A stretch of 42,408 bases of DNA from positions 1-42,408 of the forward strand of contig WGFM01000003.1 in the NCBI GenBank assembly GCA_015492245.1, read 5' to 3'. Numbering within the stretch: position 1 is the first letter of the stretch; each line of letters opens with the position of its first letter. The stretch comes from Deltaproteobacteria bacterium. Lineage in GTDB: Bacteria > Desulfobacterota > GWC2-55-46 > DRQE01. A model generated the notes under the pieces. The model was not told the DNA's origin. It searched no databases and saw only the letters and a program-made list of their open reading frames with translations. Positions 25,230 to 30,716 of this stretch are shown here, piece by piece. A program made the position numbers and the translations under genes.

Positions 25230-25275
25230 CTGACAAATGTCATTTACCATGGATGTGGCATGGAGTAAGCTTCTC
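25230..25275 (+). promoter_or_regulatory. FNR/HcpR-like operator and promoter of the heme-copper operon
   Basis: A palindrome TGAC-N4-GTCA (within CTGACAAATGTCAT, 25230-25243) resembles binding sites of CRP/FNR-family regulators, especially the HcpR type. Exactly 24 bases later comes AGCTTCTC (25268-25275). The Sco operon promoter has the same octamer at the same distance from its own box. If the palindrome sits at -41.5, the -10 hexamer is TAAGCT at 25266-25271, a weak box suited to activation. Confidence 0.6.
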
Positions 25276-25306: not shown

Positions 25307-25450
25307 ATGGCAAATGGTGATAATTTCTGGAAGAGGCTCTACGACAACATGTGGGCACTGCTTGTGCTCGGCCTGGGGATACCGATAGTGGTATACACAG
25401 TGTGGGGAATGATAGAGATTTTAAATGTTCCCAGCCTGCCGGTAAATTAG
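25307..25450 (+). CDS. Small single-helix membrane protein of the heme-copper operon
   Basis: A 47-residue protein with one predicted helix (about 16-38, ALLVLGLGIPIVVYTVWGMI) and charged or aromatic ends. The ATG lies behind a strong AAGGAGGGAGG, and subunit II follows 22 bases later. An in-frame upstream start at 25253 would overlap the operator region and is rejected. Small one-helix subunits accompany many heme-copper enzymes, so an accessory subunit is likely. I do not recognise a named family. Confidence 0.68.
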   Translation: MANGDNFWKRLYDNMWALLVLGLGIPIVVYTVWGMIEILNVPSLPVN

Positions 25451-25472: not shown

Positions 25473-25997
25473 ATGGCTTTAGAAAAACCAGAGAAGGATT
25501 GGTGGAAGCCGCTAACAAAGGACGAGAGGATATGGATAGCGGTGGCGCTCGTATGGATGCTTATATCTTTTTTCTACATGCCCTATGCTCACATAGCAGG
25601 TTCACAGAATCCTCCTGATGAGACATACAGGGTAAGCCCGGAGCAATTCTCAAGCCTTGTCGATGCCATGGTCGAGAAATATCAGGTTGGTGAGGAACAG
25701 GGTGTTCCTGTTGTGCATCCCGACCCTTCAGAGCCTGTGTATCTGAAGAGCAGTATGTGGGAGTGGTATCCCATACTCGAGCTCGAGAAGGGCAAGACCT
25801 ACAGGATTCATCTGTCCTCTGTGGACATACAGCACGGGTTCTCGCTTCTACCGTTGAACCTCAATCTGATGGTTCTACCCGGTTACGACTATGTGATGGA
25901 GATAACCCCCATGGAAAGTGGTGAGTACCATATAGTGTGCAACGAGTACTGTGGTCTGGGGCACCATCTCATGGTGGGCAAACTATATGTAAGATAA
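25473..25997 (+). CDS. CuA-containing heme-copper enzyme subunit II (B-family-like)
   Basis: Subunit II accepts electrons, normally from cytochrome c, at a two-copper CuA centre and passes them to subunit I. The 174-residue protein has one N-terminal transmembrane helix (about 20-38) and an external cupredoxin domain. All CuA ligands are present: H121, then C156, C160, H164 and M167 in CNEYCGLGHHLM, with the 35-residue spacing from H121 to C156 found in ba3-type subunits. Short length and a single helix also match the B family. It lies directly before subunit I. Presence of CuA argues for an electron supply from a periplasmic carrier. Confidence 0.88.
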   Translation: MALEKPEKDWWKPLTKDERIWIAVALVWMLISFFYMPYAHIAGSQNPPDETYRVSPEQFSSLVDAMVEKYQVGEEQGVPVVHPDPSEPVYLKSSMWEWYPILELEKGKTYRIHLSSVDIQHGFSLLPLNLNLMVLPGYDYVMEITPMESGEYHIVCNEYCGLGHHLMVGKLYVR

Positions 25998-26007
25998 GGG
26001 AGGTGGC

Positions 26008-27516
26008 ATGATGGCAGAGTTTAGAACATGTCCCGAGACGGGGCTGAAGATAGAAAGAAACGCAGAGAACCTCATAAAATGGAATGTGGGAATAGCCGTG
26101 GCACTGCTTGCCGTAGGGGGGCTCTTCGGGCTTCTCATGGCTCTTACACGCTGGCCGAGTGTCCATCTTCTGCCAGCAGATTTTTACTACCGCTTCCTCA
26201 CACTGCACGGTATAGATGCACTCCTTGCATGGGTACTATTCTTCGAGATGGGCCTTATTTACTTCACATCTGTGGTGATATTGAACTCAAGGGCTGTGTG
26301 TCCAAGGATTTCATGGCTCGCCTTCGGGTTGATGCTCGTCGGCGGTGTACTCATAAACATAGTGGTGCTGCTTGGAAAGGCAGATGTAATGTTCACCTCC
26401 TATGTGCCCCTGAGGGCAGACCCTCTCTACTACATAGGGGTGATACTGTTTGCCGTTGGAGCACTAATAGTGTTCATACTCTTCTTTGCAAATATAATCA
26501 ATGCCAGAAGGGAAGGTGCCTATGATGGCACGCTGCCGCTTGGCACATTCGGCCTTCTTGCAGCATCCATAATAGGTGTTGTTACATTGCTCCATGGTGC
26601 GGTGATAATGATACCCACCCTTCTGTGGAGCATGGGTATACTGCCAAGCCTCGATGCCAGTGTGTACAGGCTCATATTCTGGGGCCTGGGACACCCGAGC
26701 CAGCAGATAAATGTGTGCGCCATGGTGGCGGTGTGGTACATGACGGCATACCTGGTGATGGGTGCAAAGCCTGTGAACGAGAAGGTCTCGAGAACGGCAT
26801 TCGTCCTTTACATACTCTTCATAAATGTGGCAAGTGAACACCATCTCCTGGTGGACCCGGCACTCAGCACATGGCACAAGATAGTGAACACGAGCTATGT
26901 GATGCACCTTGCAGTCTTTGCAAGCATGATACACGCCTTCTGTGTGCCAGCCTCCTTCGAGTCCACACTGCGTGAGAAGGGCTACACCGCAGGGGCATTC
27001 GAGTGGCTCAAGAAGGTTCCCTGGGGGAACCCGGCGTTCTCGGCCGTAGCGCTCTCCATAGTCATATTCGGTTTCCTTGGTGGCATAACAGGTGTGGTCT
27101 TCGGCACAGAACAGTTCAACATGATACGCCACAACACCTTCGCCATACCAGGACACTTCCACGGCACAGTGGTGGGAGGCACCACACTTGCCTTCATGGG
27201 CTTCACATACCTCATGTTGCCCACCATATTCCGCCGCAAGCTCATACTCGAAGGCTGGGCAAAGGCACAGCCCTATGTGTTCGGTATAGGGGTTAGCATA
27301 CTCTCCATAGGCATGATGGCCGCAGGTTCCTTCGGCGTGCCGAGGCGCCACTGGGACATAACATTTGCAGGGGCATCGTTCCCCTACGCGTTCGATCCAT
27401 CGATAGATGTGTTCATGACCATGGTGGGACTCGGCGGAGTCCTTGCAGCAGCAGGTGGAGTGATGTACATAGTGGTGGCACTTGGCTCCATATTCAAGGG
27501 CGAGAAGGTGGCATAA
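26008..27516 (+). CDS. Heme-copper superfamily subunit I lacking the active-site tyrosine
   Basis: A 502-residue membrane protein with about 12-13 helices. It contains the six metal-binding histidines of the superfamily: H67 and H385 for the low-spin heme, H383 for the high-spin heme (in PGHFHG), and H229, H278 and H279 for CuB. The HHLLVDP and PGHFHG contexts are like the B (ba3) family. The helix that normally reads HPxVY reads HPSQQ, so the cross-linked Tyr is Gln (Q233). The position used for Tyr in cbb3 enzymes, six residues before H278, is Ile. NO reductases also lack this Tyr and carry Glu at the same offset. NO reductase is therefore a strong alternative to oxygen reductase. A second ATG at 26011 is better spaced from GGAGG. 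Confidence 0.85.
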   Translation: MMAEFRTCPETGLKIERNAENLIKWNVGIAVALLAVGGLFGLLMALTRWPSVHLLPADFYYRFLTLHGIDALLAWVLFFEMGLIYFTSVVILNSRAVCPRISWLAFGLMLVGGVLINIVVLLGKADVMFTSYVPLRADPLYYIGVILFAVGALIVFILFFANIINARREGAYDGTLPLGTFGLLAASIIGVVTLLHGAVIMIPTLLWSMGILPSLDASVYRLIFWGLGHPSQQINVCAMVAVWYMTAYLVMGAKPVNEKVSRTAFVLYILFINVASEHHLLVDPALSTWHKIVNTSYVMHLAVFASMIHAFCVPASFESTLREKGYTAGAFEWLKKVPWGNPAFSAVALSIVIFGFLGGITGVVFGTEQFNMIRHNTFAIPGHFHGTVVGGTTLAFMGFTYLMLPTIFRRKLILEGWAKAQPYVFGIGVSILSIGMMAAGSFGVPRRHWDITFAGASFPYAFDPSIDVFMTMVGLGGVLAAAGGVMYIVVALGSIFKGEKVA

Positions 27517-27537: not shown

Positions 27538-27669
27538 ATGACCGAGAGAGATAAAGACAAGATGGAAGCGCCAGGTGTCTTCATACTGGCTTTGATATTC
27601 CTTGTGCTATTCATAGTTATATGGTTCATGCACCACAAGTGGCTTACACAGCTCTGGCCAATAGGTTGA
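27538..27669 (+). CDS. Small single-helix protein (subunit IIa-like)
   Basis: A 43-residue protein read from ATG to TGA behind AAGGAGG. It has a charged N-terminus (MTERDKDKMEAPG), one helix (about 14-31) and an aromatic, basic end (HHKWLTQLW). Size, topology and position next to subunit I resemble the one-helix subunit IIa of ba3-type oxidases, but identity to that family is an inference. It is the last gene before a 195-base gap. Confidence 0.66.
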   Translation: MTERDKDKMEAPGVFILALIFLVLFIVIWFMHHKWLTQLWPIG

Positions 27670-27801: not shown

Positions 27802-27847
27802 TTGATAAAAATCATACAATAGAGTATCTTTACTATGTTAGCTTCTC
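27802..27847 (+). promoter_or_regulatory. FNR-like operator and promoter of the Sco operon
   Basis: TTGAT-N4-ATCAT (27802-27815) differs from the FNR consensus TTGAT-N4-ATCAA at one base. After 24 bases comes AGCTTCTC (27840-27847), the same octamer at the same distance as in the heme-copper operon promoter. A TACAAT overlapping the end of the box could be a competing -10 element. Confidence 0.65.
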
Positions 27848-27864
27848 AAGGAGGGAGTATTGGT

Positions 27865-28695
27865 ATGAAGATGGGCTTTGTAGCAGTGCTTGTGGTTGCA
27901 CTGGTGGTTCTGAGCCAGGCGGACCTCTGGGCTGAAAGGGGCAGGGGGTGGCAGAGTGCAGACACCCTGAAAGAGGCCTTCCGCAATGCCGAGACAAAAG
28001 AGGGCAGAAAGGTTGATGACATCGAGCTCTTCGACGAAGAGGGCAGGAAGTTCCGCCTGTACGGATACATCGAAGACGGCAGGCCCCTTGTGGTGGCCTA
28101 CATATACACGAAGTGCCAGAGCGTGTGCCCCCTTATAACCCAGTCCATGGAGAAGACGCTGATAGATGCCCGTGCAGAGTTCGGCGACAGGTTCAATGTG
28201 ATACTCCTCGGGTTCGATACAGAGAACGACACCCCTGAAAGCCTCCGTGAGTTCAGAAAGAGATACGGTGGAGACTTCATAGTATTCGCAGGAGGCACAA
28301 AGGAGAATATGAAAAGGCTTCTTCTGCAGACAGGCTTTTACTACAAGAAGCGGGAAGACGGGATGTTCGACCACCTCGACATGGTGACGGTGCTCTCGCC
28401 AGAGGGAAGGATATACAAACAGATATTCGGGATAAGAAGGAACGGAGACCTTCTCTTGAAGACACTGCGCCGATTCTACGAGGGCTCACCACCACCGCTT
28501 TCGCCTGCGACACTTCTTGAGAGGGTGAAGTATCTCTGCTACCGCTACGACCCTGCAACAGGCAAGTATGTGTTCGACTACTCCGTGGTTGCAGGCGCCC
28601 TCATCCAGCTCGTCATAATGGTGGCCATAGTGATGCTCGTGTGGGGCGGGCGTATAAAGGCGTTTGCAAGAAGAATACTGAAGAGAGGAGATTAG
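27865..28695 (+). CDS. SCO1/SenC-family copper chaperone with C-terminal anchor
   Basis: Sco proteins deliver copper to, or reduce, the CuA site of subunit II. The 276-residue protein has an N-terminal signal or anchor (about 5-23), a thioredoxin-like domain with the copper-binding CxxxC in YTKCQSVCP and the distal His in FDHLDMVTVLSPEGRI, and an extra C-terminal helix (about 240-262). The ATG is preceded by AAGGAGGG. It is well placed to mature the CuA centre encoded upstream. The cytochrome b fusion follows 13 bases after its stop. Confidence 0.88.
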   Translation: MKMGFVAVLVVALVVLSQADLWAERGRGWQSADTLKEAFRNAETKEGRKVDDIELFDEEGRKFRLYGYIEDGRPLVVAYIYTKCQSVCPLITQSMEKTLIDARAEFGDRFNVILLGFDTENDTPESLREFRKRYGGDFIVFAGGTKENMKRLLLQTGFYYKKREDGMFDHLDMVTVLSPEGRIYKQIFGIRRNGDLLLKTLRRFYEGSPPPLSPATLLERVKYLCYRYDPATGKYVFDYSVVAGALIQLVIMVAIVMLVWGGRIKAFARRILKRGD

Positions 28696-28708: not shown

Positions 28709-30202
28709 ATGGAGAGAGGAAGAGCTGAAAGGCTCTACATAAGGCTCGAGTCCCTGATGAACAGGGAGAGCCCCTTCAACCCGTTTCTGCACCTGGGTGC
28801 CATAGGGATACTGCTGCTGTGGGTGATACTGTTCAGCGGTATATACCTCTTCATATTCTACGAGATAAGCCTGGAAGGGGCATACAGCTCTGTCGAGTAT
28901 GTAACAAACAGGCAGTGGTGGCTCGGCGGCATAATGCGGAGCCTCCACAGGTATGCATCAGATGGGCTCGTGCTGGTTACACTGCTCCATGCGTTCAGGG
29001 TCTTTATATTGAAGAGATACTACTTCTGGCGTGCCTTCGTGTGGGTTACAGGAGTGGCGACACTGTGGCTCATATGGATAAGCGGTATATTCGGCTACCT
29101 CATGGTATGGGATACGAAGGCCCAGCTGATAGCCTTCCTCTCGGCAAGGCTGCTCGAGAGCCTGCCTGTGCTGGGAATACCCGTGGGGCTGAATTTTGCG
29201 GTGGAAAGGCTGTTGTCGGACCAGTTCTTCTACATAGTGCTGTTCATACATTTCTCAAGCATTGTGGTCATAACACTGCTTCTTGCACTACACCTCGACA
29301 GGATTTCACTGCCCGAGATAACCCCACCACGCCCCATACTGTGGGGAGTGCTCCTGGTGTTGCTCGGTATGGCGATCGCGAGGCCAGCCGTAAGTGATGC
29401 CATGGCAGACCTTAAGAGGCTTCCAGTGGATATAACTCTCGATGTCTTCTACATGTTCGTGTATCCACTGTTCAACCATCTGTCAGAAGCGATGATATGG
29501 GCACTGCTGGTGGGTCTCACAGCACTCGTTGCAGCCGTGCCATGGCTTGGAAGAGGCAGAAGAGATGAGCCCGCAAGGGTGGTGGAGACCCTCTGCGTGG
29601 GCTGTGAACTATGCATGAAGGACTGCCCCTATACGGCCATACAGATGAAGGAAAAAGAGGGGCTTGTTGTGGCAGAGATTACAGACAAGAGGTGTGCAGC
29701 CTGTGGCATATGCATGGGAGCATGTGAATACAGCGCCGTAGAGCTTGGCACACTCAGGGAAGAGGCAATATACGAGAGGATAGAGGCCCTGTGCGATGGG
29801 CTGAAGGAAGAGACGGAAGCACCAAGGGTGATGGTGTTTGCCTGCAGGTGGGGGGTGGAGGCAGAAAGACTGCTCGGGGACAAAAAGGGTGTGGCCCTCT
29901 TGAGCCTTGAGTGCATAGGGATGGTGCAGTCAAGGATGGTGGATGTTGTGCTCCACAAAGGGGTGGATGGCCTCGTGTTCGCAGGTTGCAGAGAAGGAGA
30001 CTGTGCCTATAGAAGGGGTAACACCTACTTCACACAGAGGCTCGAAGGCATAAGGCCACCAGTGATAAAGCCGGGAGGTCCAGCAGGAAAGAGGATAAGG
30101 ACACTCTGGTTCTCTGCAGAAGAAAAGGAGGCGTTCCTCGAAGAGTTCGGGGCATTCATGGAAGGACTCGAAAAGGAGGAGGAAAAGGGTGAGCCGGTTT
30201 AG
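28709..30202 (+). CDS. Cytochrome b / 2[4Fe-4S] ferredoxin / FlpD (MvhD) fusion protein
   Basis: A 497-residue three-part electron-transfer protein. Residues 1-280 form a cytochrome b-type membrane domain with two pairs of heme ligands, H80/H94 and H181/H195, each 14 residues apart as in bc-complex cytochrome b. Residues 290-345 hold two [4Fe-4S] sites (C296, C299, C302, C306 and C329, C332, C335, C339). Residues 372-450 match the FlpD/MvhD hydrogenase iron-sulfur domain, with C379, C402, C427 and C432 and the GVDGLVFAGCREGDC signature. MvhD normally links hydrogenase or ferredoxin-type donors to heterodisulfide reductase. Here it could carry cytosolic low-potential electrons into the membrane. 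The start ATG is 13 bases after the Sco gene. Confidence 0.86.
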   Translation: MERGRAERLYIRLESLMNRESPFNPFLHLGAIGILLLWVILFSGIYLFIFYEISLEGAYSSVEYVTNRQWWLGGIMRSLHRYASDGLVLVTLLHAFRVFILKRYYFWRAFVWVTGVATLWLIWISGIFGYLMVWDTKAQLIAFLSARLLESLPVLGIPVGLNFAVERLLSDQFFYIVLFIHFSSIVVITLLLALHLDRISLPEITPPRPILWGVLLVLLGMAIARPAVSDAMADLKRLPVDITLDVFYMFVYPLFNHLSEAMIWALLVGLTALVAAVPWLGRGRRDEPARVVETLCVGCELCMKDCPYTAIQMKEKEGLVVAEITDKRCAACGICMGACEYSAVELGTLREEAIYERIEALCDGLKEETEAPRVMVFACRWGVEAERLLGDKKGVALLSLECIGMVQSRMVDVVLHKGVDGLVFAGCREGDCAYRRGNTYFTQRLEGIRPPVIKPGGPAGKRIRTLWFSAEEKEAFLEEFGAFMEGLEKEEEKGEPV

Positions 30203-30716
30203 ACTCGTTGCAACCCTTGTTGCCATGTTCCTGCCCGTGGCGCTGTTTTCGGCAGTGCCCTATTCGTTCTACCAGAGGAATGACGCCCTTTTGAAGGTGG
30301 CGTTCAAGACCAGTGGCAAGAGAATCGTAGAGTGTGATGAGAAGGGGCGAATAAAGGAGATGGCAGAAATCTATCGAAGGAGCATAAAGGAGGGCAAAGG
30401 GGCAAAGATAGACCTCTCGGAGCTCGCCAAATGCCCACCACAGAGGCATCCAGTAACAGTAAGACTCGAGATAAACGGCAAGGTTGTGCTACACAAAGAA
30501 TACCGGCCAGGAGGCGTAAGAGACGACCTCTCCTCCTATGTATACGAGGAGATTCCCCTCAAGGCCGGCCCATACAGTATAAGGATAACCATGTGGGACA
30601 GGAAAGGCGAAAAGATGCCAGCCTACTCCCTTGAAGAAGAACTGCCCCTTGAGCCCGCAGCAGTGGCTGTAATAGGGTTCGACCCGGTAAATGGCGGGTT
30701 CGTCCTCTACAGATAA
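30189..30716 (+). CDS. Unrecognised N-terminally anchored protein
   Basis: A 175-residue protein with one hydrophobic N-terminal segment (about 6-24, an uncleaved anchor or signal) and an otherwise soluble, charged domain that would face the periplasm. Two Cys residues (in VECDEKG and AKCPPQ) could form a disulfide. The strand-rich C-terminal half (VTVRLEINGKVVLHKEY, GPYSIRITMWDR) suggests a beta-sandwich. The GTG start overlaps the cytochrome b fusion by 14 bases behind GGAGGAGG. It closes the operon. No family is recognised; context suggests a partner of the respiratory module. Confidence 0.7.
   Translation: MSRFRLVATLVAMFLPVALFSAVPYSFYQRNDALLKVAFKTSGKRIVECDEKGRIKEMAEIYRRSIKEGKGAKIDLSELAKCPPQRHPVTVRLEINGKVVLHKEYRPGGVRDDLSSYVYEEIPLKAGPYSIRITMWDRKGEKMPAYSLEEELPLEPAAVAVIGFDPVNGGFVLYR

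Follow-up and report, generated by a model that had tools for sequence, protein, structure and literature searches.

The operon listed in Table 1 very probably encodes an eNOR-type nitric oxide reductase, as predicted from sequence, family and model. It was found in the window, i.e. the whole stretch of 42,408 nucleotides analyzed here. The protein, while useful, is an ordinary representative of the eNOR family. Two features go beyond the descriptions that we found in the literature, namely a conserved cytochrome b-ferredoxin-FlpD partner of the enzyme and paralogues of subunit I devoid of CuB ligands.

Metal site of subunit I

The subunit I gene starts with ATG, codes for 502 aa and matched the Pfam model COX1 with 226 bits (E 9.7e-67). 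In an alignment with the ba3 oxidase of Thermus thermophilus, the histidines H67, H229, H278, H279, H383 and H385 corresponded one for one to the ba3 ligands H72, H233, H282, H283, H384 and H386, so that all heme and CuB ligands are retained, while the position of ba3 Tyr237 was taken by Gln233. The ba3 ligands, Tyr237 and the channel sites mentioned below are given in the established numbering of ba3. Residue 272, located six residues before the CuB histidine pair, where cbb3 enzymes carry Tyr, is Ile. A preceding sequence-only reading of this DNA had named the six heme and CuB histidines, a Gln at the position of the cross-linked Tyr and an Ile at the alternative cbb3 position, all of which were confirmed by the alignment. 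Gln233 was invariant in an alignment of 38 family members, and Gln occupied the site in approximately 100 sequences from many phyla, these being all close relatives recovered that cover it. A sequencing error or chance as the origin of Gln233 can therefore be excluded.

Relatives, phylogeny and predicted fold

Of 63 genomes belonging to the class of the host, 45 gave a match at E <= 1e-20; most of them possess a copy that is 59-72% identical, some match via the distant paralogue devoid of CuB ligands only (see below). A scan of named genomes yielded 493 related stretches. The best 80 of these 493 loci all exhibited Gln at the site and belong to MAGs labelled Deltaproteobacteria, to Nitrospirota, Nitrospinota, Alpha- and Gammaproteobacteria and Accumulibacter as well as to Gemmatimonadota, Aquificota, Bdellovibrionota and Leptospiraceae. 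Named relatives with Gln residing on plasmids were detected in Defluviimonas (54% identity), Thermomicrobium roseum (51%) and T. thermophilus (45%). Maximum-likelihood analysis united the Gln proteins in one clade (support 98/94), from which the Tyr-bearing B-family enzymes as well as sNOR, aa3 and cbb3 were separated. We relied on the tree for this separation only, because several comparators reside on long branches. Clustering inside the canonical oxygen reductases, named in the sequence-only reading as speaking against its proposal, was not observed in this tree.

An AlphaFold2 model built from 38 family members reached a pLDDT of 88.1 and a pTM of 0.91. Its best matches among solved folds were 7deg, a heme-copper oxidase dimer (TM 0.90), and T. 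thermophilus ba3 (TM 0.87); the predicted fold of subunit I is ba3-like. A single proton channel is expected of an eNOR. According to the alignment, two sites of the K-channel are kept, Tyr244 (ba3 Tyr248) and Ser306 (ba3 Ser309), and two are changed, ba3 Thr312 to His309 and ba3 Tyr244 to Val240. Tyr244, Ser306 and His309 were invariant in the family alignment. In subunit II, Glu18 is conserved to 99% among 79 homologues and might be the counterpart of Glu15, the residue at the channel entry of ba3.

Three loci, two on T. thermophilus plasmids (L030, L031) and one of Aquificota (L069), carry Lys at the position of His385 within the motif GHFKGT or GHFKAT. This replacement of the second low-spin heme ligand suggests a His/Lys ligation in these eNORs.

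Assignment to eNOR

The eNOR family is reportedly that of Hemp and Gennis in 2008 and of Murali et al. in 2024. It is defined by a Gln replacing the Tyr of subunit I and by a cupredoxin subunit II immediately upstream, while the same position is occupied by Glu in cNOR and qNOR, by Asn in sNOR and CuANOR and by Asp in gNOR (PMC8756737). PMC11388526 cites Murali et al. 2024 for NO reductase activity of eNOR. In the window, Q233 aligns with ba3 Y237, the gene of a CuA cupredoxin subunit II directly precedes that of subunit I, and the Gln clade stands apart from the Tyr-bearing B-family oxygen reductases. As the characterised R. marinus eNOR and those of Natronomonas and Ardenticatena were absent from the retrieved sequences, the assignment is based on the marker residue and on the relatives from Thermus and Thermomicrobium.

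Other identities were rejected by the same position: sNOR or bNOR because of Gln instead of Asn, gNOR because of Gln instead of Asp, and a B-family oxygen reductase because Q233 is located where the comparators from Haloarcula, Deinococcus and Geobacillus have Tyr. A cNOR or qNOR was dismissed on account of Gln instead of Glu, the CuA subunit upstream and the ba3-like fold. The sequence-only reading had proposed either an NO reductase that derives from the B family and has a CuA subunit or an otherwise non-canonical enzyme. Its former proposal agrees with the position of the Gln clade outside the Tyr-bearing B family, with ba3 as closest fold and with the published eNOR marker; the latter is superfluous, since the eNOR family already has a name and has been characterised biochemically.

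Genes of the eNOR operon

Table 1. Position of the eNOR operon and its putative operator in the window.
Feature	Position	Strand	Evidence or remark
TGACAAATGTCA, putative operator of the CRP/FNR type (DNR/HcpR-like)	25231..25242		ca. 65 bp 5' of the first operon gene
47-aa one-helix protein, likely small subunit	25307..25450	+	relatives directly 5' of subunit II in 73 of 77 loci
Subunit II, membrane-anchored cupredoxin with complete CuA site	25473..25997	+	NCBIfam CoxB, 3.5e-11
eNOR subunit I, heme and CuB ligands, Gln233 at the Tyr position	26008..27516	+	ORF, Pfam, alignment, tree, model
43-aa one-helix protein	27538..27669	+	sequence and comparison with homologues
SCO1/SenC copper chaperone	27835..28695	+	Pfam SCO1-SenC, 1.6e-14
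Cytochrome b N-terminal domain, two [4Fe-4S] motifs and FlpD (MvhD-like)	28709..30202	+	Pfam Cytochrome_B, Fer4, FlpD
175-aa membrane-anchored exported protein, end of operon	30189..30716	+	homologue after the fusion in most loci

The window contains, in this order, the genes for the 47-aa protein, the CuA subunit II, subunit I, the 43-aa protein, SCO, the cytochrome b-ferredoxin-FlpD fusion and the 175-aa protein. By analogy, the 47-aa product is likely a small subunit in a position like that of ba3 subunit IIa. The CuA ligands of subunit II (His121, Cys156, Glu158, Cys160, His164 and Met167) were 100% identical in 79 aligned homologues. In members from proteobacteria and Thermus, the helix corresponding to the 43-aa protein is fused to subunit I at its C-terminal end. 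Loading of CuA/CuB is likely performed by the SCO1/SenC protein, and the 175-aa protein gave no match to Pfam or NCBIfam models. The operon is widely conserved: among 50 loci with enough flanking sequence, subunit II was present in all 50, SCO followed subunit I in 46, and the cytochrome b fusion was located downstream in 42. Defluviimonas has the gene order of the window with an inserted cyoE.

The fusion protein conserves His 80, 94, 181 and 195, which are suited to two b hemes, together with eight cysteines in the ferredoxin part and four in FlpD. None of five loci of Tyr-bearing B-family enzymes contained the fusion, and in a limited comparison with the literature we found no description of it as a part of eNOR operons. 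Tentatively, one could see in it a module dedicated to electron input into eNOR or to coupling, through which NO reduction by a CuA-type NOR would be connected with the quinone pool and with electrons of low-potential ferredoxin or of Hdr/thiols, though we consider this rather doubtful. To our knowledge, there is no NO reductase with such a link. The conserved fusion partner is a testable lead on the electron supply of eNOR.

Putative operator upstream of the operon

The box TGACAAATGTCA is the sole TGACN4GTCA of the window; with 0.57 occurrences expected by chance it is not significant alone, and a count of TGAC-N4-GTCA in the genome did not reveal clear significance either. A comparison of 76 loci disclosed TGAY-N4-RTCA in 38 of 76 slots upstream of eNOR, corresponding to 1.67/kb vs 0.12/kb elsewhere in the same loci, an enrichment that is not a formal probability because related sequences contribute several counts. 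Control palindromes were encountered in 0-3 loci. Putative boxes of the CRP/FNR type (TGAC-N4-GTCA) are enriched before eNOR operons, which is convincing only in the cross-locus comparison. The motif resembles the NO-linked HcpR site TTGACnnnnGTCAA and the DNR site TTGATnnnnATCAA (PMC1274295). In the host genome one match to the Crp helix-turn-helix family was obtained, and the exact box was not found near the d1, second eNOR or nar loci, which does not support a regulon shared by these loci. In Thermus, eNOR is followed by genes for an Rrf2 regulator and a DUF542 (ScdA-like) protein; like the boxes, these genes point to a nitrogen-oxide context.

Subunit I paralogues devoid of CuB ligands

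Some loci harbor a second subunit I which keeps the heme histidines and one CuB histidine and has lost the CuB histidine pair (HH to IY, LF or similar); approximately 8 residues are missing before the last heme ligands. Such genes were detected in L048, L049, L052, L053, L057, L058, L069, L082, L094 and L104 and in the host itself (C6:59707-61065; L122:9707-11065). The paralogues constitute a supported sister clade of eNOR and are located directly 3' of it in about 10 loci. Our literature search did not retrieve a published description of subunit I paralogues without CuB ligands. The host copy adjoins a 137-aa mini COX1-like membrane protein (C6:58566-58979, minus strand, L122) and is followed by an ORF for a regulator resembling the Rrf2 family.

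Nitrogen oxide genes of the host genome

The heme-copper enzymes of the host genome comprise an A-family oxidase (aa3), a cbb3 CcoN, two eNOR operons and one sNOR. Its seven COX1 matches include neither cNOR nor qNOR; eNOR and sNOR are the sole heme-copper candidates for NO reduction. The second eNOR operon (C12:150139-154400, L121), whose subunit I is 68% identical to that of the window, adjoins an sNOR-type pair of CuA protein and subunit I, forming a double NO reductase locus. The sNOR subunit I (C12:152481) has the motif GHILMN with Asn and is 35% identical to a protein of Ruegeria pomeroyi DSS-3 (GHVFIN), a genus formerly named 'Silicibacter'. 'Silicibacter' is among the listed holders of sNOR (PMC8756737).

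NarG was detected over the cut-off. A d1-heme cluster (C25:43083-48703, L120) contains NirN, a 411-aa d1 protein without heme c, a cupredoxin ORF, a NirJ-like radical SAM protein and NirF; its heme-c-fused d1 protein is closest to NirN, the 411-aa one to NirF. No canonical cd1 NirS carrying a fused heme c turned up in the host genome, so that the nitrite reductase of the host may be a split or atypical form. The models for NirK and NosZ gave only matches below the cut-off in this genome. For this reason we do not claim complete denitrification, and the lack of canonical NirS together with the weak NirK match makes the NO source of the host uncertain. The host is an uncultured denitrifying-type bacterium, for which NO reduction is a plausible need given NarG, the d1-heme cluster, the eNORs and the sNOR.

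In routine annotation, enzymes like eNOR are taken for cytochrome oxidases; the labels of the plasmid homologues read 'cbb3-type' or 'b(o/a)3-type'. N2O-capable genomes are missed in consequence. The host genome, being without cNOR and qNOR, would score as unable to reduce NO despite two eNORs and an sNOR.

Proposed reaction and alternative explanations

Substrate, product and proton route are those that we infer from the family. Electrons would enter from a periplasmic carrier at the CuA centre of subunit II and pass by way of the low-spin heme (His67/His385) to the high-spin heme (His383) and CuB (His229, His278, His279), where two NO would yield N2O and water. The Tyr which serves oxygen reductases as the fourth electron/proton source for O-O cleavage is replaced by Gln233, and the two-electron reduction of NO would have no need of this Tyr. 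Protons would probably be delivered from Glu18 of subunit II through a modified K-type channel.

Subunit I shares its fold and metal ligands with the oxygen reductases of the B family, and the enzyme might reduce oxygen by use of a relocated Tyr as in cbb3, having lost only the usual one. Tyr268 and Tyr297, which according to the alignment are invariant in the family and not Tyr in ba3, could be proposed for this role, the more so as a single helical turn separates Tyr268 from the cbb3 position. We regard this as improbable, however, since the cbb3 position itself is Ile272, the Gln clade is set apart from the Tyr-bearing enzymes, the host already possesses aa3 and cbb3 oxidases, and NO reductase activity is reported for eNOR (PMC11388526).

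It is still less credible that the protein is a heme-copper reductase paralogue without catalytic function or with a role as a sensor. Sister paralogues without the CuB histidine pair exist, some of them directly 3' of eNOR, hence degeneration does occur nearby in the family; yet the metal ligands of both subunit I and subunit II are all conserved here, and SCO as well as the small subunits are retained. The least credible explanation is an NO dismutase converting 2 NO to N2 and O2, which we hold to be extremely improbable. The only point in its favour is that we are dealing with a non-canonical, NO-related heme-copper enzyme, whereas the NO dismutases known to us derive from qNOR and do not have a CuA subunit, and the window enzyme is ba3-like and has one. 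A nitric oxide reductase of the eNOR type remains our preferred reading.

Comparison with known systems

The window enzyme shares with eNOR the Gln at the Tyr position, the six histidine ligands, the CuA cupredoxin subunit II immediately upstream, the B-family origin and, possibly, remnants of a K-type proton channel. Differences pertain to sequence and operon detail only: the C-terminal helix is encoded by a separate gene, and the operon contains the cytochrome b-ferredoxin-FlpD fusion. The Gln-bearing 'cbb3-type or b(o/a)3-type oxidase subunit I' proteins of T. thermophilus and Thermomicrobium roseum (45-51% identity, motif GHGAQQ) are likewise preceded by a small protein followed by a CuA-type subunit; unlike the window operon, they have no cytochrome b-FlpD gene in the flanks examined, and the Thermus protein carries Lys at the position of the low-spin heme ligand His385. 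With T. thermophilus ba3 of the B family, the enzyme has the fold, the heme and CuB ligands and the CuA subunit in common, but ba3 Tyr237 is replaced by Gln, Y244 by Val and T312 by His. The sNOR of the Ruegeria pomeroyi DSS-3 type, of which the host genome harbors a copy (C12:152481), also is a B-family-related NOR with a CuA subunit; it differs by Asn at the Tyr position and forms its own branch with a support of 100/100.
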